Below, in pieces: positions 1-57,144 of a DNA stretch of 64,000 nucleotides (positions are counted from its first letter, which is position 1; each line of letters starts with the position of its first letter). A program made the translations under genes and the position numbers. This DNA comes from Argopecten irradians. Taxonomy: Eukaryota; Mollusca; Bivalvia; Pectinida; Pectinidae. The stretch is taken from assembly GCF_041381155.1 (NCBI RefSeq), contig NC_091143.1, positions 36,508,679 through 36,572,678 on the forward strand, read 5' to 3'. Under the pieces are notes generated by a model. The model was not told where the DNA came from. It saw nothing but the letters and a program-made list of their open reading frames with translations, and searched no databases.

Positions 1-3000
1 CCTCCTTCAAACGACGAGTTGAATCAACTGAAGGAAACTGAGAACCTTTATCACTCAAGTTTGTTTCGTATGCAGGTAAGACCATTTCCTCGGGAATATT
101 CTTCTTTGCATGTACAATTCCACTAGCCCGACGTCCGGGGCTAGTGAATTTCAGGTCAGGGCTAGTGGCTTCACGATCATTACTAGCCCGTGGGCTAGTG
201 AAAATTTCTGTTAAAATCCTATATTTACATTGAAATTTCAGTTGTAAATCAACAGTTTAGCCTTTTATTGCCATTCAGAATTCTACTAGCAGTAAATGTG
301 TCGTCAAAACTGAAGCAAACGATATCAATGCATACCACAGGCACAGGTGGTTCCCAAACGTAAATAACATTCTTCATCTAGGTGCATCAAACGTTTTGTT
401 ATGTAATTGATGAAAGTTAAGCGCTTGAGTGACCCAGATGGCCATGTGTTTGCCGAGGTTGCTGACAGACATGGAACGGAAAAATCTAGATTTCTTGACT
501 CTAGATAAGAATCAATTATGAAGTGACAGTTTTATTATCTAGCATCATTATCATTTTAGTGTTATAAATTTGAGAATATGGGGGTTGGATTCAAAAAGTA
601 CTACTGCTGTGAGATGGATAGCGGATCATTTTGAAGTGATTAAAATACACGGTAGAATGTTGTCATGTACACTTGCAGATACATAGGTATACTTAGTTAA
701 CACAGCTGACACAAATAAACCCACTGAATGTTTTTTCAAAATAACTTAAATAGAGGTTTCATAATTATAGGTACAATATTTTTGCATATTTTTCATCTTA
801 TCTTTCGTATATTTTTATGATATATTGAAAACTTGTAAATGGAAATCAGCAGTGCTAATTAATTATCATTTACAAAATATTGCATAATAAATTGTAAAAT
901 TGATTTTGTGTAGTTCTTGGAATAAATCTATATGAAATTGGCATCATTTGATTCAAATACGAATGTATCATTGCAAATGTTACTAGATAAAGTTTTTTTT
1001 CAATGCTCAGAAAATTAGGGAAAATAAGTAAGTGTTCAGTAAAACAGTAATTTCAATTAAAGATTTTTTTACAGAATTTTCATGAACTGTACTATTTACT
1101 AAATTCATCATACCTATACAATGAAAACAGCAGGTAATAAATACTGATTGTTCACTTTACATTTTCCTGCTAAGCTTTTAATATCAAAGTTAAACTTTAA
1201 TAGATATATACTGATTATGTTTTCTTTCTACGGATAGTTTTAAAGGAAATATCTGAGTGAAATAAGAACCATAATTTTAAATCTAAAGTATTTTGCATGT
1301 GATGGCTGCTTGTTGCATTGTCAATATTGACTCAAGAATGTTTTTACTAAATGAATACCTGGTACCTGTGAAACAATCTGTGCGATATTTTTATTAGCAG
1401 AATGGTATTTAACACACTGTTAGACATGTACTTGTTCTGTACAGGTTTGTAAAAAAAATCCAGATCGAGTAAAATGCACATATAAAAACGAACGAAAAAT
1501 AGGGCTAGTAGACTTCTGATCAGGGCTAGTGAAAAATTGATGCTACTAGCCCTTGGGCTAGTGCAAAATTTTCAGAATTGTACACCCCTGTTCCTTTGGA
1601 ATATTCTTCTTTGCATATTACAGAGTAACTTCCCTTGCAGGTAGGTATCGATTGTGATGTCATTTCTAAAAATCTTTTTGAGTAAAAATGTGTTGTTTTC
1701 TCCAAAACGTAACATGTTACTCTCATAAAAACATGTTATAACAATCAATACCTACCAGCAAGGGCAGATAACTCTGTAATATGCTATTTCAGGATAGGAG
1801 TTTCAAAATAGTAAAACAATATCATTTGAATATGTTTAGTCCCATCTTCTAGTGATTCGACATTTCGTCTCACTATGCTTTCCAACCATGATATGATGAT
1901 GTCAAAATCACTGGAATCGTACACAAACAACACAATTTTTCTATCTCTTCTTCTTTCAGCTGTACAAACGACAGATTTGAGTACACTTGTCTTTGTATCT
2001 CGATATGGACATATATTGAATGAACAGTATCAAAATAAGTGAATACAGACTGCAGATGGACAGATATTTTTAATAAATGATTATTTGTTTGTTTTTTAAA
2101 GATTACAGAGCTCCTTTCTGAAGTATCACTGAAAGCTAAACGACAGAGGCAACTTGAAAATGTCTTTACCACTGTCAAGGACATTCTTTTGGATCTCCCC
2201 AAAGGGAAAGCTCATGAGGTATTTTATACATGTCTCATTATACCTAAGTAATTGTAGGGGTTTGCTCTAACCAGGAATGAATTTCTTCTGTTTATCTTGA
2301 GTACTAAATATGATCTAATTTAGGTTAGATATCAAAAAAGTGAAAATCAATTTGATCAGTAATAGAAACATTATTAAAAAAAAATCTTAAGTCATTCTGA
2401 GGTGAATGCCATTCAATAACAAGATCACCAGATGAAAAGGAAAATATGTAAGATTATTCACCATTTCCATATTCATTGAATTTTGTCCTGTGTATGGCTG
2501 TGTATATAGTCCTGAATGTTTTATTTTAAAAAATATTTGTTGCTGATTCTCACTTAAATATTACTTTTATGCCTGTCAATTATACTTGAATTAAAATTAA
2601 AGTTTTTATCAAAATAATGATCTTCATTGCACTTATATCATATGAGTCATTGAAAAGCTTTATTTTACCTCTTTTTACAGCTGATGGAACAAGACTGGTT
2701 ACCAAAGAAAATTGTCAAGGTACCGATATACCAGTCCCCAGAGTCTGTGAAAGGAAGGTTTCAGTTTTTTCCTCCAACTGAAGTAAAGATAGTTGGGAGT
2801 TTTTTATCAAGAACCTGTGTGAAACCAGGTGTAAATTTGGACATTGCAGTTACAATGCCAGTTGTGAGTATTCCATTGATGTTTTCCTTTGAGCAACATT
2901 AAAAGAGGTGTGTGGGGGAGGGGGACATATATATTGTTGCCAATGTCCGGGACAGAGACAGAAACAATTATGTCTTACAGGCTTTTTAGTCAAAACAAGA

Positions 3001-6000
3001 TTTACATAGATCATTGAACTTTGCTAAATTGAAGTTGTTGGAACTGTCGTAAAACTTCCATTGCCTAATATGTAACTCAAGTGAATTTGAAGAAATAGTG
3101 TAGAGTAGCGTAGAGTTAGGCTTTGTCATGACTTTTTCTGTATGCCTGAATTGATTTATGACATTAAAATCATCTTTGAAATATATATTTTGGAATTTGG
3201 AGTGCAATGATCAATATAATCACGCAAGAAAATATAGAAAAAAAATTGAGAGCAGAAAACTCGAATTTCAGAAAATTAAAAGCCCGCTCATACAGAGATT
3301 TATCTGAATAAACAAAGTTAAATAAAAATTAAACATTATACCTATAAAGCAGTATGTATATGTATTGTATGAAGATAAATTTGTATTATTATAGGAATGT
3401 CTGCAGAGCAAAGACAACTTGAACCAGCGATATCTGAGAAAGAGGGCTCTGTATTTAGCTGTTCTAGCTAAACACCTGAAGAAGAAAGAAGAGGTGGAGG
3501 ATTTAAAGTTTACTTACCATCATGGCAGTCACTACAAACCTATCCTAGTTCTACAAGTGAAAGGTAAGGATGTAACGAGGGAGGTATGGTGGTTGAGTTG
3601 TCGCTAGATCACTGTTGATGACCAAAGGGTTTGCTAGTTGGAACTCAGTGAGGACACAGCCACTCTATATGATTGTGTTAATTCCTTTTAGTCCTGTTGT
3701 AAATGACTTTATATGTGTTATAGTATCATGTAAGGATGGTTGTTGAAGTGATCAGGAATTGGACCGAGTTAATTGCCAGTGACAGGGTGATTCATAGGAG
3801 GGTTTTTTGAGATCCCAAAAAGTCCCAGTAAAGTGTGATTTACCATTGATTAGCCCCACCTTCCGTTAATAATTGTGCCATCATCTTTTGATGTGAATTT
3901 TGTGATTTCATAATCTTAAATCACCAGAAAGTTGGATCTCGAAACCCCCGTATTGGTAGATCATCAATCTGTCTAGTGCTTGTTGGACCATGGTTAGATA
4001 TGTGGCCCAGCTAGGCATTTTCTTGCTCAAACTACAATTCTTCGCTTAACAGTGCCAAAATGTTAATTAGCTTCAACTGTTTCCCAAAGGGTTCAGAAAA
4101 CAAACAGCATCTGGCTGTGAAAACCCAATGTATACAGATAAATATGTGTTGACCACATACAGACAGCCACCTGGTATTTTATTATATATAGCAATATATG
4201 ATGATAAACCTTATAGTGTAACTACAAGTATATAACCATATAGCTAGCCATACCATGTGATACCCAATAAAGTTTTTGCGGGACTTGTACCTCCAATGGT
4301 GATGAACGTAATTCTTTGTAATCTTCCCGCTGAAATGACATTTGCGCCGGATCAATTATCATTGTACGTCATTTCATCACCAATAGAAAAAATAGTCCTG
4401 CACAAATGTTATCGGGTATCATGTGGTACGCGAATTATTCCAATGTTTGGCTAAAATAAGCAACCATCTGTACCAGATTAATAATTCTATTGTGGCTGAA
4501 TATCTTTTTACTTCTCTTTTACACAGGAGACACAGGAAAACCTATTACTGTACATTTACATGTGGTAGCGGAGGAAGGAATGTTCAAGCTGCATCGTTTC
4601 CATGTCAACAAAAACAACATTAGGAATCAGTGGTACCATGGTCAGACGCAGGAAGTGGAAGAAGGTGAGTACTGTTAATTAAAGCGAAAAGGAAATCATG
4701 AAATTGTATCCCCACAAAATTAATTAACTATACTGTAAGTGGTAGAGTGTAGAAATTGTTATTGCGTTGTAAGTTTTCATTATGCTTTATGTTTAACAGA
4801 TGATCAACCTACTACACCTGTGTACAACATGGCCATCCTTAGCGACCTGACCTTGACCCAGAACACTGACCACTTGACCAGTATACTCGGGAATAGCCAG
4901 GGAATCAGAGAGGGAATTCACTTACTGAAAGTCTGGCTTCATCAACGGGAACTCAATATGGTACATGTCCACTGTAATAGTTGTAAAGATGAAGGATTGG
5001 TCAACAATTCATGTCAATTATTATTTAATGGTGTTACAGTAAAACATGTTTACAATGGACATGCTTTTAACAAATTCATGGTTATGACGGAATATTTTTC
5101 ATTCCCTGATATGGTTCCTATAAGATGTTTGTAATATGTATATTAATATATTATGCTTATTATGAAGTAATTCTGTTTGTCCCGGAAGTTCATTATATAA
5201 CCATGCATGTTTTACTATATTAGACAAAATGAGTGGCCGATGGTTAAATTTTATCGGAATGAAACTTCAGCATTACCGTATTCGACCCAATAAGCGCCCA
5301 TGTCCCTATTAGCGCCCCTCCCCCTTTTTGAGGCCTAAATTTCAATTGCCCAGACATAAATAAGGACCAAAACTACATAAAACGGTATAAATTTGCAATA
5401 ATTTTGACTTATTTTCATTTTTATCAATTTTTTAAGCGCCCTGGGCGCTAATTGGGTCGAATACGGTAAGTCTGTTATTGTCAAAACGAAAAGTCACTCT
5501 TAGTTTAAATGCAAAATGAAGTAGTTTTTCATCTGCATTACTGCCTATCATAAATCCTAAATCATAAACCACATGATTATTAAGTGGTCCATCGTCCGTT
5601 CATATGTCGTCCTTCCGTCCAATAACAATTCTTGTTACCGCTATTTCTCAGATAGTACAGTCAGCAGGAATCTTTCTCAAATTTCATATGTATAGGCTTC
5701 ACATGGGCCCTAGTTGTACATATTGCCTTTTGGGACCGATCCAAGATGGCTGTCAGGCAGTCGTATTGGATTTTGAAACTTGAAGTTTGAAAAGCAGAGA
5801 AAAGCTCCCTTTTCCATTGTCAGACATACCTAGATCATTTTTTGGTGAGTACTAAGATCCCTCTGAGATCTCGTGTCCCGTAATAAAACTGTTACAGTCC
5901 TGTAACACTTATATTTAATTCTACGTTACAGGGTTATGGCGGTTTCTCTGGTTACATCCTGTCAATGTACGTCGCATATTTGTTGTCCAAGCGACGTCTT

Positions 6001-9000
6001 AACTACATGATGAGTAGCTACCAGGTCTTCAGAAACACACTTTTAAACCTTTGTAAGTATCACTTTCCATAACATTTACTCTCCTGTTAATGAAAATCAT
6101 AAGTTCATCATTACTGAATATAAACGAATCTTTCTTATCTATGTATATACAACAGGAGGAGAGAATGTAGGGGCTAGACTTGAGTTTGAATCTAGGACCT
6201 TCAAACACTAGCCAGATGCTCTACCGATCAATTGAGCTACCTGGTAACTGATTTTTGACTAAGTCCAACATACTACATGTACAGGGCATCCTATTGATCC
6301 TTGACTTATAGCAGTTTCAGAAAACAAATACCATTTCTTAAAAATCTGAAGAGTCAAAACATTTGACAAATAGACATGTACTTCAAAATCAAGACATGAT
6401 CATGACAGGAGATTAGACATGTACTTCAAAATCATAGAAAAGATTAATTGTTGATTGCAAAATGTTGAGTTGCCAAACTGATCAGCAATACAGTAAGTTT
6501 CCTTCGAGTTAATTCTGTTTTCTCACTGATTTTTGTAGCTAAATCTGATTGGACAACACAAGGAATCACCTTTTGTGATGATAACATGGATTCACAGCGC
6601 CCTCTGTTGTCAGACTTCCTCGAAACCTTTGATGTTGTATTTGTGGATGTGACGGGCTACTACAATATCTGTGCTTCTATGAACAAGTCATGTTACAATC
6701 GGGTAAGACTTTATGTTATTATTATATGATATTATTAGTCCTCTAACGGTAAAACTGGAAGGGACTATTGTTGTCAATTCTGTCAGTCCATCTGTCCTTC
6801 CTCACTTCCATCTCTCTCATGAAGTTTGTCAGCACTCACAGCTTCATTTCTTAATGAATGTGTATAGATAATTAAAATACCATGGATAGGTTGATATTTC
6901 ATGGTAATTGGGTCAAGGTCACTTACTTTTTTTAGAAGAAAAACCGTTGTCAGCAGCATTAATTGCTTTGTTTCCTTAACGGTGAAAAATTGTGGGACCA
7001 TCAGGGACATATATTGCTTCAGCACTGTTCAAATATCTTGTTAGTTTTAAAAATTAAAACGTTTGTTCTTTTTGTTAATTTGCCCTTGCTTTTAAATCTT
7101 ACTGACCCACTATATACAGTCGTACAGGAGATCAGTAACTTACTCAAGTAGTAGCATTAAACACAAGTACCTATACAACATAATTATTGGTCCAGAAGAT
7201 CGATCGATATCTGCTGGACATAACAAAATCCTCCTATACGGATCTTATAATTCCACACGTTACAGGTTCGTTACGAGGCTGGACAGGCCATGCTGATGCT
7301 TGACGACCATTCTCTAGACAGCTTCTCCTTGTTTTTCATGACACCTCTTCCTTTCCTCCGGACATTTGACAATGTATTTCAGTAAGTCTACTGTTACATG
7401 TACTTCACTCAAACTTTGTTATACATCCTTGTATTGAAAGACAATTAGGAGAAAACTTTATTTTCAAATCATATTTTAAAATAGCACTCTTTAACTAATT
7501 GTAGTTCATTTGGTTCAAAGGACCAATGTGTCCTATGAGTTGATGATATTAGGTTGCTAAAATGGTTAGACTGACCCCCTAAGGGCATAACAGGCAGGTC
7601 AAAAGGGGTCTATGTATTCATATTAACAACTACCTCTCTGAAACTAAGCAATGGATATCACTCGATACTTAACTCAAACTGTAAGCCTGAGGTTTTGTTT
7701 TATGTACTAATTAACCTGAGGAGCATCAATTATGTTTTCTCTGCCTCTTGCAGCTCACAATTTGGATTGTTGTTAAAATTATTTTCTTTCAAATGCTATT
7801 TTTTCAGCATCCGAAACTTATCTTGTCTTGAGGCTGCGGTAACAAAGTTTGACCTGACTGATAGAGTTATGGACCTTGGCGGTGATATGGTTGCCACGGT
7901 AACTCCTAGTCTGATAACAGTACTACAGCGTTCACTGGATAGGAGAATTAAACTGTTACAGGTCAAACAGGAGTCTACACCACAGGTCAGTACTCATGTA
8001 ACGTCACTGAAATACAGAGTATCATTAAACTTTGTATGATTTTGGAATTTAAAAAACACTTATACTTTAAATTTAGTTATCCATCACCTTCACTTATTCA
8101 TCTTTTCGAGAACATGCACACTACAAAATATCATCTGTAAGTCAAATAACTTTCAGTAAACAAAAACCGCTTCATCTCACTGAAGCATACTGCTGAAGTT
8201 GAAATTGTATGCTGAAGTTTATCTACTGTTATGATATTTAAAGGTATTGATTGATTTTATTAGAATGTTTGATATTACTACTCCCATATTCAAATGGTGT
8301 AACAATCATTACCTATTTTCAGGGGGGAAAACTTTCAATACAAAGAGCAGATAACTCTTTTTCATTTCAAGCTATCTTTAACTGACTATATTATCTTTTA
8401 TGTGTATTGTAGTGGAACATCAAAGAAGATCCTCCTAAACCCGGTTGTCAGGGGCAGATAACTGTTGGAGTTTTACTCAACCCAGACACATGCACTAGTA
8501 TATTAGACAAAGGACCACCGGCAGACTCTCCCGAGGTGAGTTTAAGTTTGTGTTTCCATAGATCACCTGTTTAGATAGCACATCATACCATCATTTACTG
8601 CAAGTACAGAACTACTATCATGAAATTAGTAAGCATTCAGTTTTACCTACATTTGTATGTAATGTCCTATCATAACTCTCTTTGATATGGAAGTAGAGTG
8701 ACGCATTTGTCTTAAAGGTAGGTTTCGCCCAATGAAATATAAAGACTACGAAATTGAAATTTATCCTATACATAGATATAATCTTCAGATCCTTTTCAAT
8801 GCATACAGCGAACAATATGGGTGGTCAGTTGCCTAGCTTGACCAGGAAAATACTCCTCTAAAAATAGAGCGAAGTCAAGCTTTACATAGAACATGACGCA
8901 TTTTTTTCCAAAACAAGGCCGCAGCAACAAACGGAAGCGTACAACAAAATGTCAGATAGAAGTGACCGTCTTGACACGGCATGTTTAGTTAAAAAACAAC

Positions 9001-12000
9001 AACAACAAATCGAAGTGCGAGGGACTGTTTATACATATCATATAACACTTCATGTTACTTACATACGCTCGCTAACTTTGTACACCAAATATACATGTAG
9101 TTAGTCTGCGGCTGTTTGTGCGCTGGCATATGTGTTGAAATTTAACTCACCACGTGCAATGTCGTTACACGAGTCCCAACAGATCCCGGCAAGTTCCGCT
9201 TGAGATGTGGCTTCTGTTTCTTCTATGCTACATGCCATCTCTGAATTTAATTCCCTATAGATATCCTAGGGTGCTACCGAATCCATCATAATTTCCTCCA
9301 CTTTGTTGCCGATTCAGATATATTTTTTTCATTGCACACACTTTCGTTCAACCATTTTGTTTACTTTTAGTGCGTGACAATGCGCATGCGCCAAACTTCG
9401 ACAACACAATCCATCGCAGCTTCATTTGCATATTATTTTGTCTGACGGACACCGTAATAAATCAAGGATTTCCTTCAATTTTGTATTCAAGACACATTTG
9501 TTCAATCTCAAACACATAAGGAAATTACATTGAGATAATTTAATATGTTTTTTTCATCTTTTCTTCCGCTTATCGCATTTCACAAAAAAATATTTATTTG
9601 GTTGGGCGAAACCTACCTTTAAAGATATTTTGGTTTATCTTAAATAAGACAACATGTGGATTCTACTTGTTGAAAATGAAAAGTGTATCAATCATAAAGT
9701 AAAGCGTATAAATTTTTATTAATAATCATAAAAGATTTTTATTTTGTAGGCAGAGGATTTTCGTGACTTTTGGGGTGAGAAATCAGAACTCCGGAGATTT
9801 AAAGATGGCAGCATATGTGAAGCTGTTGTATGGATGGAGGCAAACTCTGAAATATCGAAGAAGAGGACTGTTTGTTCTGTAGCTGTCAAACACATCCTAA
9901 AGAGGTTTGTGATGCTTTTACTGTCAGGTGCCATGTACAAAATATATCTGTTACTTTTATTTTACATCAGAGTTCAAAGTTTTTAAACAACAATCTGGTT
10001 TGGTATATTTTAGGCTTAATGTCCTATAAACAGCCAGGGTCATTGACGGATGGTAAATTGACAATTTAGGCTATCAATAGACTGTTTGTAGTGAAGTTGA
10101 CAGTTCTACTGAGCCTAATTAATTTAGACCTTCTTCTAGAATATAACCACTGATCATTTGATGTGTACCCGATCAGCTTCTTACAGCAAGGGACTTCTGC
10201 CTTTCTGTCTTGGAGGTGGACAATTTTTGGAAATGAAGGCTTCCCTCCTGAGAAGAGCCTAAATCAAGTTGGCCTCAGGGTCACAAGTTTGTTTGATGTT
10301 GAGCCAGGAACAAAACCAAAGTGAAAATAGTCATTACATCAAAACTGAGGCCTTCAACAATTAGGAGACCTTTATTTGGTCCCAAAAATAAATAATACAA
10401 CAACAATCTGAGGTTTCATTCAGTTTCGACTACTATACAGACGGTTATTTACATGGGTCAAAATTTAACTAATAATGATGAAATTAAATCTTAAAAGGTT
10501 GAAATTTTCACAATGTGATTTTCAGAGTATGTATGATTCAATTATTTCTCAATATTATGCGGATCCAATTTTTGCAATTATAATGACCATGTCACATAAA
10601 ATTACAAAAATATCATCCCATCGAAAATAACCTGTTACAAGTGTGATGTGATTTGTTTATTGCAGACAAGCTGGGATACCGCCAGAGTCCTTATGTTTCA
10701 TCGGCCCACAACTTGATCCACTGCTGTACCTCCCTGTTAAAACGAAGAAAGGAATGAAAAGTTACGGTACAGGAGAGGAGGAGAGTACGGCCATAATGCA
10801 CACCTATGACTCGCTGTGTAAAATACTACGGAATCTCAAGGACATGCCTCTCACGATAAACTCCACACAAGGGACGTCGCCAGTGTTTAGGTTTACGGAG
10901 GTAAGTCTAAGTTTGTTTTAACTCCTTGCTTCTGATCTCTTGTTGATTACAATTGGAAGTTTGACATCAATGATTTGGAGATAAAACATATAAATTTTTT
11001 TTCAAAAGTGAGTCGTTTATGCACTGTTGATAAAAAGAACATTAAATTCTGTGTACTGAGACATGTTATTTTCATGTACAGTGGACCCGCGATAATCCGG
11101 ACGCCGGTAGTCCGGAAAACTCACAATCCGAACGGAAATGTCAGGGAACGGATTTCCGTAACGTTATTTATACTCACTAGTCCGGAAATTCGTATTCCGA
11201 ATCCGGAACTCCATTTTGGGAACGGAATGTCATTTTCGTTAATAAATTCCCGCAATAATCCGGACAATTTGTTGTCGCCACGTGCCGAGAAAATCCAAGG
11301 CCAGCTACAGTCATGTGTACAATACACACAATCACTTGACACTGAGTGTGTTGTCATAACGACGGCTGCCAGGTCATAGCCACGGGCGTTTACCTGAACA
11401 CCTTTCAGACGGGTACATGCAGTCATGTAACGGTTCATTGGTTTTCTATAGGAGATCAAACTTCAGTGTTGTTATTGAGATACGCAATATATGTTTAGCC
11501 ACACACTTTTAAACATGCAGTTTGAGCTTGGGTACGGGTACGTATGCTGTAGATACCTTACTTGTTTCGCATGCAGAATATATCGCTATGAGTATCGAAT
11601 GCAATAAAGTGAGATAATACTCACAAAATTAATAAGAATTTTAAATGTATGTGAATCTATTCGAATTCATCGTCTGTGGTATAAGATATAAAGGCTACGG
11701 CATATGCCATTTACACGTGTGTGACATTGTGCACGAAGTTAGACGTGAACGGGCGCGTGGTTGTTACAAACGTCTGTAAGTCAGAAAGCAAAGATTTGTA
11801 GAAATGGTCATTAAAAACACACATTATACAAAATAACAATTATATGAGTTTATAAAATGTTCACAACTATTTGTTATCATAGTTTTTTTTATGCCAAGAA
11901 CGTAGATGATATTGATCCTTTGTTAGGCAATTTGCCGTACGATAGATCAAGAGTGGGATACGTAGCTATATGCATATACATAGTACACAATTAACAATGG

Positions 12001-15000
12001 CTTTAGGTTTCGTATTTTGAAGAAGAAATACGTTTATTCAATATTTTTTTAATATAATGATATAAAAATACCTATAAATCATAACAAACGAAGTATTAAT
12101 TATGATACACGTATATTACATAAAAGCCTATCATCGATTACAAGGTCAAGGGGAGTAACTCGTACGTGCCAATTTAATTGACTAAGAACACGGAATTCGG
12201 CAGTCCGGAAAACTCGTAATCCGGACGGTTTAGGCTGGGAACGAAGGTGTCCGGATTATCGAGGGTCCACTGTATAAAATATTTTTTTTTTTTTCAACAT
12301 ACCGTATATATTTTGCAAATTCATGATCATGGGCTCTTACTTATGATCATGTATTTATATATATACATTTTGTAAAATTATTTGAAAACAATTGAATTCT
12401 TGTTTGAGCTCTGTCATAAAATCATACGAAAAATTTTGTATCTCATGAAAATAAAGTGAAAAGTTTGATTACCAGTAAGTGAGTTAAAATGGTATACTAA
12501 AATTACATACAGCACCTGTGTTTGTATTTAAAGGTGTTTCACGCCACAGCAGTTGTAACTTACATTAGACTGTGTTTGTATTTAAAGGTGTTTCACGCCA
12601 CAGCAGTTGTAACTTACATTAGACTGTCTTTGTATTTAAAGGTGTTTCCAGCCCTAGAAGCCACATCACCACAACAGTTAGCAGGAGAAGCTGGCAGTAT
12701 TCAGTGTCCTAAACCCAACAAACCACTTCCCCCATATACACCAGTACACAAGAGTAGGTCATTCTTGGCCATAGCAAAATTTCTTGGCCATAGCGAAATT
12801 TCTACAATGTTTCTATGTTAGGCTACTATATTGTATATCATTACATGTCATGGAAATAATTTGATTTCCTCTCTTTCTCATGGATCAATTTGAGGAGCCT
12901 GATAAGATAGACTAAGCAGAATGTTAAATGTTACATGTATGACAGGATAAATATAAAATGCATTAAGAAAATAAGATTATATTAAAACTGCCTAACATTT
13001 TAATCCCAATCTTCAACTGTTACTTTGTCAATTTTAATTTTCTTCTTTTTTTTTTTAATATATTCAGGCATGGTAGTGATAAATCTTGAGTTCAATTGTT
13101 GAAAATGTGCTGTCTTGTGCCATGACAAATGTTCTTTGATCCAGCCAAAACATATATTTTGTAAACAGACTATATGTTTTGTATTTATAGTCACCTGCCT
13201 GATGGAAGGAAGTGGTAAATGGCCAGACGAAATTGAACCATTCCGACGTCTAAAAGCAGCTTTTCATATCGCATTGGGAAAGACCTTATCTAGTGAGCAT
13301 AGCCTGGTCGTCAGGACAACCCCAGGATACGTAGATGTGAAGAAGGTGAGTCTGATACATTAAACGAAAAAACACTGGTTTAAATGCTTTCTATAGATAT
13401 CTGCAATGTTAGAAACTATGTCCTGTGGAACATTTTACCAGTATTTATCCTGAAAGTAACCAATGGGGTCCAATTAAATTTCATATATACAGGAAGGTCA
13501 TTTAGTAAGCCAATTTGGCGATACCAAAACAATTTCCAAGAAGTATGATTTATCGTCGATTACTAAGCCCACCTTTTGGTTATTGTGATGTCATATTTGG
13601 ATATGATATCCCAATCACTAGAAGTTTCGTCTAATCGATAGTAAATTGTATTATCCACATAAAATTTACTTTATATTTAAACTTATTAATTACAGTCAAA
13701 CCTTTCAACAAGTTTATGGTAAATTTACAAGTTTACATGATTCAGCTATAATGTTTTCGCGCACATTTGATATTTCGAGAAATTTCTAGTCGGAAGTTAA
13801 TGAAAGATGATTTAGTTTGACTGTATTTTACATTCTTGCAAATGTGCATTAAGAGATTCTGTTGTAATTTTCAGAACAACTACATATTCCGAGTAGAGTT
13901 ATCCTACCTTCGTGAGATAGCCTTGGCCAAGTCACATCGTACTCCCGAGGGGATGATGAAGATGCGAGACACACCTGAATCTTTAGAATTAGAAAAACAG
14001 ATGGTAGCTTTGCCGAAACTTACCAGTACATTACATGGGTAAGTGTACTGTTTACTCAAAAACTTACCAGTACATTACATGGGTAAGTGTACTGTTTACT
14101 CAAAAACTTACCAGTACATTACATGGGTAAGTGTACTGTTTACTCAAAAACTTACCAGTACATTACATGGGTAAGTGTACTGTTAACTCAAAAACTTACC
14201 AGTACATTACATGGGCAAGTGTACTGTTTAACTCAAAGCATACTCTTTATGAAAAAAATCTTTGAGGTATTTTTCAGCTGCATTGTATACTGTTAAACTT
14301 TGCTATCTCCATTCTTGATGTTCCAGGGGTTACTGTCACTGTCGTTATATTAACCCTTAGACTATGTCATAGCAAAACTGAAGGCATTTCAGGAGTTAGA
14401 AATTCACCACCAAACACAGGCCTACAGAGACGTCCTTTAAACATTAGAGAGAGCAACCGCCAAGCTTCAGAGCCATACAGTGTACTGTTAGTTAATTCTT
14501 TTGATGTACATTGAAGGCCCCACGTTACCTGTCTGATCTGTTATTGCACACACATGTAGAGCCTTCAGTTTTGCTATGACATAATCAAGGAGTGGATATT
14601 ACAACACTGATTGAGACCCTGGCAGTTTAATTAGAATAAATATTGTTTTGTTTGTCAAAGCATCACAGCAAAACTTTGAGATAAGAATTGGAACTTGCGT
14701 GATAATTTGAATAATGGATAGCTAAATTGGAACTTGCGTGATAATTTGAATAATGGATAGCTAAAATTTTTACCACTTAATCAGTCTCAATTTAGGTTCA
14801 GCTCTTATGTTATTTCAGATATAATGACTGTTCTTTTTATGAAACAATTACGTAATTACCACAATATGAAGTTTGATTATTATCAAAATATTCAAGTCAA
14901 GCTGTTTAACCAATTATATGGTAAAAGTTTTGCATGAAATTTTACCTGTGATTCAAACTCCAATGATTAAAGTTGGTCTTCAAACAATGACAGCAAAAAT

Positions 15001-18000
15001 AAATTCTGTTTTGCTTCCTGTTTTAACAGACTGCAACAACAACACAACACATTTAGCGGGGCTGTACGCCTGGCCAAACGCTGGGTGTCATCACAACTTC
15101 TGTGTGACCACATACGGGACGAGGCGATTGAGCTGATGGTGGCCCAAATCTACATCTCTCCTAATCCTTTCAGTGTACCAAAGTAAGTGAAGAAGTTTTA
15201 GATAAGGCTTGTAATCCATTCAGGATTTTAATTAGGCTTAAAGTCCGATCACTTACCAACGTAAGTAAGGAAGTTTTAGATAAGGCTTGTAATCCATTCA
15301 GGATTTTAATTAGGCTTTAAGTCTGATCACTTACCAACGTAAGTAAGGAAGTTTTAGATAAGGCTTGTAATACATTCAGGATTTTAATTAGGCTTTAAGT
15401 CCTATCACTTACCAACGTAAGTAAGGAAGTTTTATATAAGGCTTGTAATACATTCAGGATTTTAATTAGGCTTCAAGTCCAATCACTTACCAAAGTAAGT
15501 GAAGAAAATTATTCTAAATGAGGCTTGTAATCCATTTGAGGCTCTGAGTTAGGCATCTAGTTCACTCTGTATACAAAAGTAATTACATATAGACTCTTGA
15601 GGTCAATGTAATTCAAATGTAAATCTATTAGGAGAAAACTGAATGTTTTTAGGTCTTAATTTATTTAAAGTAATGGAATAACTTGCAAAATAAGTGTAAC
15701 CCTTGTCAGTATACCTCTCAAATAGTGTTAATTTCTCTTTAGCTCGATTGGTTGACTGAGTGTTGATCACTGGCAGAGGCAGTGATTAAATTTGTATAAA
15801 ATACTCTGTAACATAAGTTTTGTCAAATAATGGAAGTTGAATGGAGAAATCAAAGAACTTGTAGAAAAGTCATACGTTGACCTCATAGGTTTTCATCTTC
15901 AATCACAGATATATATTACACAAGTTTTGATAACTTCAACTGGTCTGCATGGTATTACGTCTTTTCTTTTCTAGCTCACCACATGTTATTGTTGAGACCC
16001 ACACTGTTATCTTGTTAACACTTTAATATTAATCTTGTCTTCTGTCTTTTCCAGCTCACCCCTTGTCGGATTTTTGAGGTTCCTCCATCTTTTGTCACAT
16101 CATGACTGGAGTAGAACACCTCTACTGGTGAACCTCAACCAAGAGTTTACAGGTATTTGTAATTCTGGTCTTTCTCTGATTTGTAAATGAAAATGATTAC
16201 TCAGAAATGAATAATAATACATAGGCGCCTCACAGTGAGGAAGGGTGTGAGGGTGTGTGTATGCATATGTGTCCCATGAAAATCACTTAACAGAAGTGCA
16301 ATCATTAAAGCAGTATCAAGAACATTTCATATATTAATATCAAACTAATTCTTGATCAGATGGCACAATTGTAAGAGCCAAACTTGCACAAGACTTTGTG
16401 TTCATAATGGTGTTGATTTTTTGTGACAATACATTCTTAAGTTTGGTGACATTACATTATTTTCAATATCATGTGGTGAAGGTTTGCTTAATTATTAAAA
16501 TTACTTGTAATGAAATATGTTCTCTAATTATATTTTGTTTAATAATGAAGTTATATTTGACTTCAGTATCCTGTTTTAGAATTTACACCTCACTGTCTCA
16601 GACTTATAAAATGTGGCACCTGTTTTATGCACAAAACTTTTATATGTTTAATTCCTATAGCTGGTGACTATGCGGAGATTTCATCAAAGTTTTCCAAAGA
16701 CAGGAAAACCCTGCCTCTGATGTTTATTGCCACTCCTGGAGACAAGCTGAGTTCTCATTGGACGACGGGGTTGCCAACGGCGCCAATACTCCAGCGTCTC
16801 CTCCTATTGGCCAAGGAATCTCTGAATGTTCTGGAAAGTCAACTTCACTCCAGTCAGCTGGTAGATACAACAGACTTTAAAGTAAGTATTTACAACCTAA
16901 CTGTTATGTTAAATGTATGTCAAAATCAGAATTCAAGTGTATATATCAATATCAGTTTAGAAAATCATTTATATATATAAACTGTTACAAACCACTGTTG
17001 ATTAGCAGCTATAGACATTTAAGAACAACTTTAAGACAAAGCGTGCAACTGTAGACTGACTCGAAAATATCTTAGATAATAAATATTGAGCCTGATGCAT
17101 ACTAGGATGAAAGGTTACAATGAATGAGATTGGGTGCGCTGTTTATATACATTGCTGAAAGACATGGTGTTAAATATCATAAAATATCAAGATAAATTTA
17201 TGACAAAATATATACATTGCTGAAAGACATGGTGTTAAAATATCAAGATAAATTTAGGACAAAATATATACATTTCTGAAATACATGGTGTTAAGATATC
17301 AAGATATATTTAGGACAAAATATACTAGAAAATGAATATTTAACTGAACACCCATCAAATTCAATACAGCTGTCGCTTTCTGCTTTGACAGACATGATTC
17401 TAGAGCAACATAGGATGTAAACTGTGATCTCACATTACACGTAGTTCTGCTATCTTAGCTACTACCTTTCAAAAGTACCACCCTGATGTTTGATTCATTT
17501 TTCACCTTGGTACTATGATCTTTAATACATGTAGTAACATTCTATTACGTTATTACCAGCAAATCTTTCGGCCTCCAATGGAAATCTACGATGTTGTTGT
17601 ACACCTGAGGCAGAAAATGTTGCCACGTCAGAACCAGGCGGTGGACATCACAGACGAGACGAACATCCCACTACATGTCTATAACATGTCATGTGAGGCA
17701 ATGCCAGTCTACGAGTTTGACCCGGTACAGATGTATCTGTCTGAATTAAGAGTAGGTATCACAAACATTTACTGTTAAATGTTCTATGGAACAATAACCC
17801 ATGGAATAGTTATTTAAAGGATCAGGCCCCGAAAAAAACCATTAAGTCAACCTTGTTTCCAAAAATTGCAGCCGTCTTCATGTGAATTAAATCCATCAGT
17901 TATCTTCAGCTCACCTGTCTTTCATCTGTCTGTCTGTCTGACTGTCATCTATCAACATTGCCTTTAAATCACTTCTAATCATGTACAACTGAGCTACTGA

Positions 18001-19113
18001 TACGTTAACAATACAGTAAAACCTGCTATAGCAGCCACCCTGTATAAAGACCACTTGTGTAATAAAACCTGCTATAGCAGCCACCCTGTATAAAGACCAC
18101 TTGTGTAACACTTTTGACACTTCTTATATAACTCTCTTTAATTTTGGTTTTCAGGCAGCTTATGGTGAATATGCCCTGTTCTTCCACGATCGATATGGAG
18201 GAAACCTGATTGGCGTTATATGGAAACCTCAGGCATTCAACAAGACTGCATTTTCGGTATGTTGAATCTATGACAGTTCAGATGTACATTTAAATTCAAA
18301 GTGTCACAAGTCCTCCCTGTCAGAGTCATGATTGAGGGGCCAACAATTGACTATAGGTATTATGCTTTGTATATGGCAGGACCACAGTTGGCAAGTAATT
18401 TTAAAAGATGTCTCGATATATTACCACAAGCCCTCCACCTCTGGGCCGCTAGTTCGAATCCCATATGGGGCAGTTGCAAGATACTGACTGCTGGCCGGTG
18501 GTTTTTATCCAGGTACTCTGGCTTTCCTCCGCCAACAAACCTGGCATGTGCTTACATGACCCTGGCTGTCAATAGGACGTTTAACTAATAAAATCCAAAC
18601 CCTTTGTTTGGAGTTCATATATGTGAGGGGAATAAGTTATGGCATGTATAGTGGGGGACTTAAAGTCATCAAATTAGCTTGTTCTGTGTGTTTTAGGAAA
18701 ATGTAGTTATTGTGTTGTGTCTCCTTGTAAAAGTGAAACTCTTGTCCTGTTTATAGTCCTATCCGACTGAAGCATGCAGCAGAAGACAAAAAAAAGCACA
18801 CCCCACCCGATCATATTATATATATAAATGCTGACAATGGGCAATTGCTTACCGTAACTTAAGGAGGAGCAGGAACTGCAGGTGTTAACTAGCATTTCGT
18901 GATTAAGATAAAACATCGATAATTTTGTACTTATATTTGTTTTAGGTGAACCGCATAGCAGGAAAGATGCCAACATCACAGAACACAGACAAACACACAG
19001 AAGTTCAAATCGTCGGAAATGTTGAGGCCATTTTGGAAGATTTTCAAGTCCTTGGTGGAGGTCTTGTATCCAGAGTAGAGATAAAGAAATGGAACTTTGA
19101 GTCAGACCAATGA
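1..19113 (+). CDS. NOL6: Nucleolar protein 6 (NOL6/Nrap, Utp22 homologue), 5'-partial, 22 exons
   Basis: NOL6 works in the nucleolus in the small-subunit (U3) processome, where its yeast homologue Utp22 partners Rrp7 and casein kinase 2 for 18S rRNA maturation. Exons read directly: 1-75, 2102-2218, 2681-2863, 3395-3563, 4527-4664, 4800-4960, 5932-6052, 6539-6702, 7266-7381, 7808-7985, 8413-8535, 9750-9904, 10666-10900, 12642-12753, 13191-13345, 13875-14038, 15030-15182, 16055-16152, 16661-16881, 17560-17751, 18155-18256, 18946-19113. All have GT-AG borders and matching phases; total 3300 nt, 1099 residues plus TGA. Family-typical stretches include LNQRYLRKRALYLA (exon 4), LLKVWLHQRELN (exon 6), EGSGKWP (exon 15), VGFLRFLHLLS (exon 18), FRPPMEIYDVVV (exon 20) and NVEAILEDFQVLGGGLV (exon 22). 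Human NOL6 is about 1146 aa, so roughly the first 50-100 residues are off the left edge. Four splice sites sit in or beside tandem duplications (see findings). Identity is recalled from the family, not searched. Confidence 0.95.
105..1595. mobile_element. hAT-like non-autonomous element with CACTAGCCC subterminal repeats
   Basis: This lies in NOL6 intron 1. The right end reads inward as CAGGGGTGTACAATTC, a hAT-like terminus; the left end keeps only TGTACAATTC. Behind each end are several copies of CACTAGCCC/GGGCTAGTG in both orientations (about 123-200 and 1500-1563). The interior (200-1490) is AT-rich with no coding potential that I can see. A nearly identical 26-bp stretch containing GGAATATTCTTCTTTGCAT lies just outside each end (about 86-113 and 1590-1614), longer than the usual 8-bp hAT duplication. 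Confidence 0.6.
1613..1785. mobile_element. MITE with ~45-bp inverted repeats (CAAGGGCAGATAAC type)
   Basis: The arms start CATATTACAGAGTAACTTCC and end with its reverse complement, and the inverted match (with mismatches) continues through GCAGGTAGGTATC-GATTG. It sits in NOL6 intron 1 directly beside the hAT-like element. A diverged relative is at 54375-54545, and a further decayed trace is near 8300-8370. Confidence 0.7.
3775..3985. repeat. Decayed inverted-repeat element in NOL6 intron 4
   Basis: The left arm (GACAGGGTGATTCATAGGAG, then TTTTTTGAGATCC) pairs imperfectly with the right arm ending GGTAGATCATCAATCTGTC. A related stretch lies at about 13490-13650 in intron 15, sharing the GATTTA...GATTA...GCCCACCTT core. 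Confidence 0.4.
4253..4426. mobile_element. 174-bp MITE with ~60-bp inverted repeats and TA target site
   Basis: The left arm CCATGTGATACCCAATAAAG pairs with a right arm ending CGGGTATCATGTGG. Pairing continues through GCGGGACT and the CAATGGTGATGAA segment, with mismatches. TA lies directly outside both ends, as for Tc1/mariner-type insertions. It is in NOL6 intron 4, about 100 bp before exon 5. Confidence 0.7.
5037..5217. mobile_element. Tigger/pogo-like MITE, copy 1 (CAGTAAAACATG ends)
   Basis: The ends are CAGTAAAACATGTTTACAA and ATGCATGTTTTACTA, flanked by TA on both sides. The interior shares AAATTCATGGTTATGA and TGGTTCCTATAAGATGT with the element at 36939-37125, and a third relative is at about 51229-51402. 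CAGTRAAAC termini and TA target sites fit the Tigger/pogo group. Confidence 0.65.
5276..5466. mobile_element. 191-bp MITE with CCGTATTCGACCC ends, copy 1
   Basis: The left arm CCGTATTCGACCCAATAAGC pairs with a right arm that is its near-perfect reverse complement, and TA lies outside both ends. A second copy in the opposite orientation is at 20612-20810, and a ~45-bp remnant of the two ends is near 43965-44009. It lies in NOL6 intron 6. Confidence 0.8.
5575..5910. repeat. Dispersed repeat shared with 60385-60650
   Basis: Both loci carry, in the same order, a GTCCGT/GTCCTT-rich start, TTTCTCAGA, GGATCTTTCT, AATTTCATAT, CTAGTTGT, CATATTGC and TTTTGGG. It has no coding potential. The pattern resembles core units of bivalve Helentron-derived repeats, which is recalled rather than tested. 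Confidence 0.5.
6172..6247 (-). repeat. tRNA-like SINE head or tRNA pseudogene
   Basis: On the minus strand the segment has an A-box-like TAGCTCAATTGATCGGTAGA and a degraded B box (GGTCCTAGATTCAAA), spaced as in a tRNA. The D and T arms are imperfect and the B box lacks TTCGA, so this is not a working tRNA gene. It lies in NOL6 intron 7 and fits the tRNA-derived head of a SINE. Confidence 0.55.
8716..9618. mobile_element. 903-bp non-autonomous element with TTAA target sites, AGGTAGG ends
   Basis: The ends AGGTAGGTTTCGCCCAA and TTGGGCGAAACCTACCT are perfect inverses, and TTAA lies directly outside each. This fits the piggyBac or Kolobok superfamilies. I see no transposase reading frame. It fills most of NOL6 intron 11. 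Three other TTAA-flanked elements with AGG ends lie at 49118-49515, 52982-53560 and 55589-55987. Confidence 0.75.
10006..10062 (-). repeat. V-SINE 3'-part fragment, reverse orientation
   Basis: Reverse complement shows GACCCTGGCTGTTTATAGGA, matching the 3' part of the SINE copy at 18400-18605. It is a short decayed fragment in NOL6 intron 12. Confidence 0.5.
11079..12272. mobile_element. 1194-bp Tigger/pogo-like element, non-autonomous
   Basis: The ends CAGTGGACCCGCGATAATCC and GGATTATCGAGGGTCCACTG are near-perfect inverses, and TA lies directly outside both. Subterminal AGTCCGGAAAACTC repeats occur near each end (about 11109 and 12201). The CAGTGRACCC...GATAATCCGGAC terminus and TA target are typical of the Tigger/pogo group. 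Two overlapping ~110-135-codon open frames at the left end run through the terminal repeats and show no transposase motif I recognise. It lies in NOL6 intron 13. Confidence 0.75.
12521..12660 (+). repeat. 54-bp tandem repeat carrying the NOL6 exon-14 splice acceptor
   Basis: TTTGTATTTAAAGGTGTTTC occurs at 12521, 12575 and 12629, each 54 bp apart. The third copy holds the acceptor used for exon 14 at 12642. The two upstream copies keep the same AAAG/GTGTTT junction, and 54 is a multiple of three, so each would add 18 codons in frame without a stop. Confidence 0.9.
14018..14237 (+). repeat. 44-bp minisatellite, five copies, carrying the NOL6 exon-16 donor
   Basis: ACTTACCAGTACATTACATG starts at 14018, 14062, 14106, 14150 and 14194. 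Copy 1 is the end of exon 16 plus its donor GTAAGTG (14039). Copies 2-4 keep GGGTAAGTG; the fifth has GGGCAAGTG. Use of any later donor would read into TAA immediately after the normal exon end. Confidence 0.92.
14363..14583. repeat. Inverted-repeat element with perfect 22-bp arms
   Basis: TATGTCATAGCAAAACTGAA plus GG at 14363-14384 is exactly inverted at 14562-14583, and weaker pairing extends to CCTTAGA/TCAAGG outside. It looks like a MITE in NOL6 intron 16. I found no clear target duplication. Confidence 0.6.
14686..14764 (+). repeat. 39-bp tandem duplication
   Basis: Two adjacent identical copies of a unit containing TTGGAACTTGCGTGATAATT, starting at 14688 and 14727. Identity is complete, so the duplication is recent. 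Confidence 0.85.
15181..15510 (+). repeat. 78-bp tandem repeat carrying the NOL6 exon-17 donor
   Basis: GTAAGT occurs at 15183 (the real donor), 15261, 15339, 15417 and 15495, exactly 78 bp apart, each after CTTACCAA(C/A) or its exon equivalent. The unit contains TTTTAGATAAGGCTTGTAAT. Reading past the first donor meets TAA at 15184-15186 in frame. Confidence 0.9.
17147..17325 (+). repeat. ~58-bp tandem repeat, about three copies, NOL6 intron 19
   Basis: ATACATTGCTGAAAGACATG is followed by GTGTTAAATATC and recurs at about 17150, 17212 and (diverged) 17268. Each unit ends with GGACAAAATATA or similar. Non-coding. Confidence 0.75.
18015..18110 (+). repeat. 46-bp tandem duplication
   Basis: TAAAACCTGCTATAGCAGCC with CACCCTGTATAAAGACC is repeated exactly once in tandem in NOL6 intron 20, ending about 45 bp before exon 21. 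Confidence 0.85.
18395..18605 (+). mobile_element. V-SINE-like (RUDI-like) SINE, copy A
   Basis: It has a B box GTTCGAATCCC at 18452-18462, then a central region with GGTGGTTTTTATCCAGGTAC and CCTCCGCCAACAAACCTGGC, and a tail with GACCCTGGCTGTCAATAGGA ending in an A-rich stretch. This arrangement fits the molluscan V-SINE family described as RUDI. It is in NOL6 intron 21. Other pieces lie at 19400-19590, 19800-19940 and 10006-10062. Confidence 0.7.
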
Positions 19114-19399: not shown

Positions 19400-19590
19400 A
19401 CAGTGGTCAAGTGTTTAAGGTATCCCGACATATCACCACAAGCCCTCCACCTCTGAAAATCCCATGTGGGACAGTTGCCAGTTACTAACCACTGGTCGGT
19501 GGTTTTTGTCCAGATACTATGGTTTTTTGCTCTACCAACAAACCTGGCATGTCCCTAAATAACTCTGGCTGTACGTACAGGACGGTAACA
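19400..19590 (+). mobile_element. V-SINE-like copy B, B box deleted
   Basis: Shares CACAAGCCCTCCACCTCTG, GTCGGTGGTTTTTGTCCAGA and CCAACAAACCTGGCATG with copy A. About 15 bases covering the tRNA B box are missing, so it could not be transcribed from an internal promoter. Confidence 0.65.

Positions 19591-51875: not shown

Positions 51876-57144
<5,269 letters not shown>

Follow-up and report, generated by a model that had tools for sequence, protein, structure and literature searches.

Three tandem arrays that straddle splice junctions in the NOL6 gene of the bivalve Argopecten irradians are, with a probability of about 0.75, ordinary recurrent minisatellite-type duplications that happened to include exon–intron boundaries and have been tolerated, possibly with a mild bias towards exon ends. 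The gene lies in a window of 64,000 nucleotides (the whole stretch of DNA analysed, from contig NC_091143.1) and clearly illustrates the duplication of splice junctions in a conserved gene. Within its genome NOL6 does not seem exceptional, and the question is rather why splice sites are so frequently caught up in repeats.

The NOL6 gene and its junction-crossing arrays

The identity of the gene was established by protein alignment with human NOL6 (PDB 7mq8 chain NH), which matches it with an E-value of 1.4e-182. The gene product contains the Nrap_D4 and Nrap_D5 domains above cut-off, its exon match to PF03813 is the single one in the genome, and similarity over the protein together with the Nrap domains places it with NOL6/Nrap/Utp22. 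Our gene model lacks the first exons as well as one from the middle, and the exon numbers 14, 16 and 17 used here are those of the earlier note. All features are given as positions in the window and lie on the + strand. Exon 14 (12642..12753) starts in phase 0 and falls within Nrap_D4, while exon 16 (13875..14038) and exon 17 (15030..15182) both end in phase 2, with canonical donors at 14039 and 15183, respectively; according to the gene model and the repeat finder, an exon between the arrays (13191..13345) has neither junction in an array. In the alignment, TE|VFPA at the 12642 acceptor corresponds to human TEVFPP, LTSTLHG|LQQQH at the end of exon 16 to human LTSALHGLQQQH, and FSVPNSPLVGF at exon 17 to human FTPPSSPQVGF. 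By this comparison the canonical sites are the last acceptor copy and the first donor copy of each array, and the conserved NOL6 frame requires no new intron at the arrays.

Using Tandem Repeats Finder, we called three arrays, with units of 54, 44 and 78 bp, that straddle one acceptor and two donors. Each is a run of similar units over one junction (head-to-tail units of about 10–100 bp in at least two copies of high identity, as in minisatellites) in which the first donor or the last acceptor restores the conserved protein. The units hold exon bases, a splice site and intron bases, with the array edge lying inside the exon by 23 bases in the 44-bp array and by 7 bases in both the 78-bp and the 54-bp arrays. 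The 54-bp array (12516..12648, 2.5 copies, 98% matches) covers the intron–exon boundary of exon 14 and presents the acceptor ‘tatttaaag|GTGTTTC’ in three places, so that the exon would begin at 12534, 12588 or, canonically, 12642; the third copy is partial, extending for about 25 bp (18 bases of intron and 7 of exon) before the real exon continues. In the 44-bp array (14016..14237, 5.0 copies, 97% matches) each copy consists of the last 23 exon bases plus the donor, which is GT at 14039, 14083, 14127 and 14171 and GC at 14215, where the fifth copy reads GCAAGT; copies 1–3 are identical, and copies 2–4 have a donor score equal to that of the canonical site. The 78-bp array (15176..15536, 4.6 copies, 92% matches) carries donors at 15183, 15261, 15339, 15417 and 15495, of which those in copies 2–4 have a C at −1 and score 5.1, against 8.4 for copies 1 and 5. 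Since its copies have diverged, the 78-bp array is the older one. There is possibly a fourth, weaker duplicate, as the acceptor of the exon at 16055 resembles position 15975, 80 bp upstream, with 4 mismatches in 24.

The earlier note had counted three acceptors and two sets of five donors at these junctions and held that the arrays arose separately. The repeat finder and the listing of the units agree on the three acceptors (the third in a partial copy), and the five donors of the 78-bp array are all present. The 44-bp array has its five copies but only four GT donors, the fifth being GC. A separate origin is supported by the lack of any sequence relationship between the three units and by their different ages. 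The claim that the upstream acceptors of exon 14 keep the reading frame also stands: the 54-nt extensions are open, and their use would lengthen the protein in frame by 18 or 36 residues.

Comparison with other genes of the genome

Control exons were taken from the CCT chaperonin, myosin and kinesin families of the same genome (three families only), which yielded 172 non-duplicate exons, 29 of whose donors and 29 of whose acceptors were not called. Arrays with a period of at least 20 included 10 of 143 control donors and 2 of 143 control acceptors, figures that supersede those from an earlier form of the control (8/121 and 2/113, respectively). This means that about one in 14 control splice donors sits in a tandem array, and the donor count serves as a baseline for judging such findings. 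The significance of the NOL6 count, three of 38 junctions, depends on the null, that is, on whether it is set against intron points or other junctions. Compared with control junctions, the P-value is 0.21 by the repeat finder (12/286) and 0.27 by self-match (13/271), whereas against random intron points of the genome (1.6%) it is 0.02. We rejected the idea of NOL6 as a special target, as its count fits the junction rate of the control sample; on our reading, it has three such arrays because this genome undergoes tandem duplication often, and its junctions are struck approximately as in other genes.

A possible excess of splice donors in tandem arrays

Once copy number is corrected for, donors appear to exceed intron points about 2–5 fold, chiefly on the sense strand, in small tests whose P-values carry no correction for multiple testing. 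The repeat finder placed 10 of the 143 donors in arrays where 2.1 (1.5%) were expected (P = 7e-5), while the acceptors, at 2/143 against an expected 2.1, showed no excess by this method. A copy-number-corrected self-match gave 7/132 donors against 1.7% of intron points (P = 0.007) and supersedes an uncorrected version (donors 6/111 and acceptors 5/108, where intron windows gave 0 to 12.5% depending on their distance). Without the correction there is no donor excess, arrays now covering 8.0% of the background sequence. When at most one mismatch in 24 was allowed, the counts were 5/132 donors (P = 0.03) and 3/139 acceptors (P = 0.27), each against 1.3%, and 32-base windows gave donor ratios of 1.6–2.7 and 0/139 acceptors at 0 or 1 mismatch. 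The starts of arrays are most frequent within the final 40 bases of the exon, with 7 at the 143 donors, and deeper in the intron they average about 1% per 40-base bin (0 to 3.7%).

The excess differs between strands. Donors scoring at least 8 were found in array units at 12/59 in the sense direction (5.8% of control windows) and at 1/59 in the antisense direction (3.2% of control windows), and the two counts differ with P = 0.002. A strand-independent effect of a DNA motif is unsupported, given that antisense donors with a score of at least 8 are not enriched, and at the looser score of 6 they number 7/59 against 7.6%. Decoys outside called exons, at 8/257 sense and 1/159 antisense, showed no clear difference between the strands. 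In a word count over the whole genome, ACAGGTAAGT occurs 9575 times and the reversed word 2404 times, and spaced pairs number 2485 and 75, respectively; the raw pair counts are not taken at face value because one array on C1 supplies 54 of the 100 listed word-pair places. When each array is counted separately, an excess of about 2.4 fold remains (11 arrays over some 662 independent sites on part of C1, a proportional estimate, against 16 over some 2345), with P between 0.03 and 0.07 depending on the counting choice.

The proposal in the earlier note that splice junctions are duplication-prone thus gains moderate support genome-wide from the donor counts, although not as a property specific to NOL6, and in other forms of the test the support is weaker, sometimes non-significant, and disappears without copy-number correction. 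The excess of arrays at junctions is also inflated, because selection holds one copy and the arrays therefore stay recognisable longer, and the junction bias could be zero. A mild mutational bias to exon ends, about 2–5 fold over intron points, is likely, though not firmly shown. Should the donor excess prove real, splice sites would be both source and victim of local duplication, and in genomes of this sort the choice of the spliceosome between successive identical donors could be studied in many natural cases.

Proposed origin and tolerance of the arrays

In the reading that we prefer, the birth and expansion of a minisatellite would at times catch an exon–intron boundary. Such an event may be tolerated where an undamaged canonical site still borders the exon and the additional copies are intronic. 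A duplicated donor would be the easier to tolerate, the canonical copy being transcribed first, while a duplicated acceptor would have decoys preceding the canonical site and should survive more readily if the frame is kept. The 54-bp acceptor array may be the more survivable for this reason, since its extension (54 nt, open) keeps the frame.

Alternative explanations

The earlier note had pointed out that all extra donors lead straight to TAA and had suggested that alternative or poison splicing is tolerated or used. The TAA is there, but it follows automatically from phase-2 introns and GTAA. In the control donor arrays (n = 10) the first extra unit contains a stop in five and is open in five, one of the open ones being kinesin array L115 when taken from its first donor copy, and this even split gives no sign of selection for poison splicing. 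The stops were consequently rejected as evidence for poison splicing, and the suggestion that such splicing is used is left unsupported. Masking of the extra donors by hairpins was also rejected: the units carry an ACTTAC/GTAAGT inverted pair, and with 80-base flanks the mean unpaired probability is similar for the canonical donor (0.31 in both donor arrays) and the extra donors (0.27–0.42 in the 44-bp array and 0.34–0.39 in the 78-bp array). We regard it as very unlikely that transcripts from downstream donors tune NOL6 by nonsense-mediated decay and that the 54-bp array yields a variant with 18 or 36 further residues. Such use would fit the strength of the extra donors (44-bp copies 2–4 and 78-bp copy 5 equal the canonical score), acceptor scores of 6.9, 7.7 and 7.3 along the 54-bp array, which do not favour the canonical site, and the open 18-residue extensions; on the other hand, predicted pairing does not separate canonical from extra donors, and an open stretch of 54 bases would not be rare by chance.

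Exon–intron boundaries, and donors in particular, might instead be true mutational hot spots for tandem duplication in this genome, linked to transcription or splicing (for example through nicks or RNA:DNA hybrids at the 5′ splice site) and steadily supplying decoys. The donor excess in several kinds of test, its sense-strand preference and the peak of array starts at exon ends all point this way, and we nevertheless hold it to be unlikely, as the excess vanishes without copy-number correction, is smaller for near-identical copies, is accounted for in part by slower decay of the constrained copy and does not extend to acceptors by the repeat finder, in a control drawn from three protein families and with uncorrected P-values. 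The broader proposal, in which a process of transcription or splice recognition writes exon-end duplications at sense-strand donors and decoy donors stand in ladders in perhaps thousands of genes, the order of transcription controlling their use, appears improbable to us. That the arrays are steps of intron gain, with a signal-bearing unit either moving a boundary or yielding a small new intron, has precedents in a potato gene (PMC4974935) and in some new intron positions of Drosophila (PMC2891723), as far as the available passages of these papers describe them. Here we consider it highly improbable, because the conserved frame requires no new intron and an intron within one unit of the 44- or 54-bp arrays would measure about 30–33 nt, probably too short to splice. 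An assembler that added or lost copies is hardly more credible as the cause. The near identity of copies in the 54-bp and 44-bp arrays would suit such an artefact, as would the fact that the scored matches in the assembly include no second copy of the stretch, yet the 78-bp copies and the fifth 44-bp copy have substitutions of their own, the same pattern recurs in other genes, and a preference for sense-strand donors would not be expected.

Relation to known systems

The closest known case is a tandem duplication across an intron–exon boundary in the potato RdRp gene PGSC0003DMG402000361, as presented in the available passages of the report (PMC4974935). Like the 54-bp array of NOL6, it crosses the boundary and copies the branch site, pyrimidine tract and acceptor; the potato gene, however, formed a new intron with transcript support. 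NOL6 differs in having several copies with no new intron required by the frame, and in that two of its three arrays copy donors, not acceptors. The same passages cite vertebrate ATP2A1 and 24-bp fission-yeast repeats, the latter reported as multi-copy units, as tandem duplications that multiply splice signals, but the model there duplicates a purely exonic AGGT segment, while the NOL6 units span an existing exon–intron boundary (PMC4974935). In Drosophila, local tandem duplication is likewise a source of new splice positions; there it concerns coding-sequence duplications with a proto-splice site, compared between species, and multi-copy arrays at existing junctions do not appear in the passages available (PMC2891723). 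Internal tandem repeats are also reported to alter gene structure in human segmental-duplication genes (PMC2812944). Among the literature matches listed, none describes an enrichment of splice donors in tandem arrays, which is a weak absence. Zhuo and co-workers are said to have described tandem-array introns in human genes in 2007, a likeness that, going by the title, would lie in arrays carrying splice sites.

Other arrays in NOL6

Three further NOL6 arrays sit within introns and touch no junction: a 39-bp array of 2.1 copies (14686..14765), an array merged from 32- and 56-bp repeat-finder rows (17144..17324), and a 46-bp array of 2.0 copies (18017..18108) that lies 46 bp upstream of the exon at 18155–18256. 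Together, six arrays fall within 5.6 kb of the gene (P = 0.007, for a region chosen after seeing it), a local cluster that ‘random’ duplication leaves unexplained.

Three splice sites of NOL6 lie within unrelated tandem arrays

The Nrap family has one match in the whole assembly (845.8 Mb, 1508 contigs), located in the window (C10:36508679-36572678), and the window thus holds a single NOL6 gene. Our exon model comprises 20 exons from 2102 to 19113, leaving out the initial exons and a middle one, and the joined exons match human NOL6 (PDB) with an E-value of 1.4e-182. Using Tandem Repeats Finder, we retrieved arrays across one acceptor (12516-12648, 54 bp × 2.5) and two donors (14016-14237, 44 bp × 5.0; 15176-15536, 78 bp × 4.6). 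The 54-bp unit contains the intron end and the first exon bases; its three acceptor copies would begin the exon at 12534, 12588 or 12642. The 44-bp unit includes the final 23 exon bases and the donor, and the 78-bp array repeats an exon end and donor in five copies, of which copies 2-4 have C at -1. The repeat finder and the listing of units both uphold the tandem copying claimed in the earlier note, as well as five copies of the 44-bp donor, although the fifth has GC and the GT donors number four. The separate origin of the arrays also holds, since the three units share no sequence relation and their ages differ, as judged from 44-bp copies 1-3 being identical and the 78-bp copies diverged. 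Both donor units (14016-14237; 15261-15510) include the inverted pair ACTTAC / GTAAGT, spaced by just four bases in the 78-bp unit, whose first copy is without it; no influence of the pair on predicted donor pairing was seen in either array.

A weaker relative of the acceptor of exon 16055-16152 is found 80 bp upstream, at 15975 (4/24 mismatches, matrix score 10.4), and by its sequence could be a fourth duplicated NOL6 splice site or a chance resemblance. Six arrays with unrelated units fall within 5.6 kb of NOL6 (12516-18108), compared with 13 across the 64 kb window; three of the six are away from junctions, and the cluster is local.

Splice junctions of other genes

Control exons were taken from three conserved protein families of the same genome, namely CCT chaperonins, myosins and kinesins (n = 179; 172 after removal of 7 duplicates). 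Their splice sites were called with a matrix that had first been trained on NOL6, then refined on the sample, which at a score of at least 5 yielded 143 donors and 143 acceptors (29 of each uncalled), and the same repeat finder was applied. Arrays of period at least 20 cover 10 of the 143 donors and 2 of the 143 acceptors. At five control loci (L090, L115, L019, L131 and L065, from myosin, kinesin and CCT genes) exon ends and splice sites recur in about 4 to 17 tandem copies, and some of these arrays are as striking as those of NOL6: a myosin exon end and donor in 54-bp steps × 4.8 (L090), a kinesin exon end in 62-bp steps × 4.4 (L115), and a myosin acceptor inside a 60-bp array of ~17 copies (L065). 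With 3 of 38 junctions in arrays, NOL6 is within the junction rate of the control genes (P = 0.21; P = 0.27 against the self-match rate). NOL6 was therefore dropped as an unusual target, and junction enrichment must be asked of the genome instead.

Donors appear over-represented in arrays after correction

Uncorrected, arrays cover 8.0% of background sequence, which equals or exceeds the share of donors covered, and self-matches gave no clear junction peak (donors 6/111, acceptors 5/108, intron windows between 0 and 12.5% depending on distance). Since an intron array counts every copy whereas a junction array counts once, the null that we regard as fair is the fraction of unduplicated sequence occupied by a single unit per array, 1.5% (48 arrays in 161 kb). 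Against this null, 10 donors were seen in arrays where 2.1 were expected (P = 7e-5), while acceptors were at expectation (2 seen, 2.1 expected, n = 143). A self-match test that dispenses with the repeat finder, looking for recurrence of the 24 bases round a point and counting only first (or last) copies, gave 7/132 donors against 1.7% (P = 0.007; 0.03 at the control's upper bound) and 6/139 acceptors against 1.7% (P = 0.03, or 0.09 at the upper bound). Allowing at most one mismatch, the counts were 5/132 and 3/139, each against 1.3%; over every window size and mismatch limit tried the ratios ranged from 0 to 3.3, many being non-significant. Donors exceed acceptors by the repeat finder (10/143 vs 2/143, P = 0.03) but hardly at all by self-match.

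At the 143 donors, seven arrays start in the last 40 exon bases and four in the first 40 intron bases; deeper in the intron the mean is ~1% per 40-base bin (0 to 3.7%). Donor-like sequence scoring at least 8 occurs in sense in 12 of 59 array units (control windows 5.8%) and in antisense in one (control 3.2%), a difference with P = 0.002; at a score of 6 the figures are 16/59 (control 12.4%) and 7/59 (control 7.6%).

Genome-wide, pairs of the donor word ACAGGTAAGT lying 20-50 bases apart number 2485 against 75 for the reversed word (single words: 9575 and 2404), a pair count dominated by a few long arrays, a single one of which accounts for 54 of 100 listed places. When each array counts once, there are at least 11 for the donor word (among the places listed, which end at 67.4 Mb of contig C1) and 16 for the control word (whole genome). 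This corresponds to ~1.7% and 0.7% per independent site (P = 0.03; 0.05-0.07 with more cautious counting), where the number of donor sites on this part of C1 was estimated by proportion and is likelier too high than too low because the first 100 single words there are sparser than the genome average. An array of 35-bp units bearing ACAGGTAAGT extends for more than 2 kb at G000:C1:58594767-58597087.

Possible causes of the donor excess

The corrected donor tests agree in direction at ~2-5 fold, although they are small, share data and carry P-values uncorrected for test number. They favour the earlier suggestion that junctions are duplication-prone, against which stand the flat uncorrected tests and the repeat-finder acceptors at expectation. 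A mutational bias towards donors is likely, albeit modest and unproved. Slower decay must contribute part of the excess, since selection holds one copy of a junction array. The predominance of donors over acceptors could possibly reflect purging: extra acceptors, lying upstream of the canonical one, would be encountered first, and acceptor duplications would thus be purged oftener, whereas extra donors lie downstream and would be transcribed later. The acceptor array of NOL6 preserves frame.

A 2007 study reportedly dealt with human tandem arrays, and the literature matches listed included no report of donor enrichment in such arrays. In a potato RdRp gene, a new intron was produced by a tandem duplication that spans an intron-exon boundary (PMC4974935), some Drosophila intron positions are explained by tandem duplication (PMC2891723), and a third paper deals with tandem repeats inside human genes and their bearing on gene structure (PMC2812944). 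Like the potato duplication, the NOL6 arrays span junctions of exon and intron; the conserved frame of NOL6 calls for no new intron at them.

Reading frame and possible use of the extra sites

The human NOL6 alignment has no insertion across TE|VFPA, TLHG|LQQQH or VPN|SPLVGF (the nearest gap, of three residues, lies a few residues past TE|VFPA), which makes the final copy of the acceptor and the first copy of each donor the conserved sites. As had been proposed, the upstream acceptors, which would add 18 or 36 residues, keep the frame, and read-through past the donor of either the 44-bp or the 78-bp array confirmed an immediate TAA. Both donor-array exons end in phase 2, so that G completes the codon begun by the two leftover bases, and the triplet of GTAAGT that comes next reads TAA. 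This stop follows from exon phase and is uninformative as to poison splicing (an isoform with a premature stop), a reading the earlier note had offered. Nor do the control genes indicate that poison isoforms are favoured: a stop falls within the first extra unit in 5 of 10 donor arrays and is absent from the other five, such as that of L090 (myosin), where this 54-bp unit is open in frame.

The extra donors are not weak, with copies 2-4 of the 44-bp array scoring 8.3, like the canonical donor, and the fifth copy of the 78-bp array scoring 8.4, like the first, and predicted pairing revealed no masking of them by local folding; leakage to the extra sites may therefore occur. The three acceptors score 6.9, 7.7 and 7.3.

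Other elements in the window

The intron after the 44-bp array holds a dispersed repeat (14304-14643) that matches dozens of places in the genome, with 72-79% identity in the longer matches, and it is a MITE-like palindromic element because its two ends also match in inverted orientation. A protein kinase domain exon (PF00069) lies at 51942-52433 on the + strand. In the last NOL6 intron, 18420-18475 contains GTTCGAATCC, which we take to be a tRNA B-box-like motif, and is perhaps a tRNA-derived SINE; a translated stretch resembling it lies near 19430-19480.
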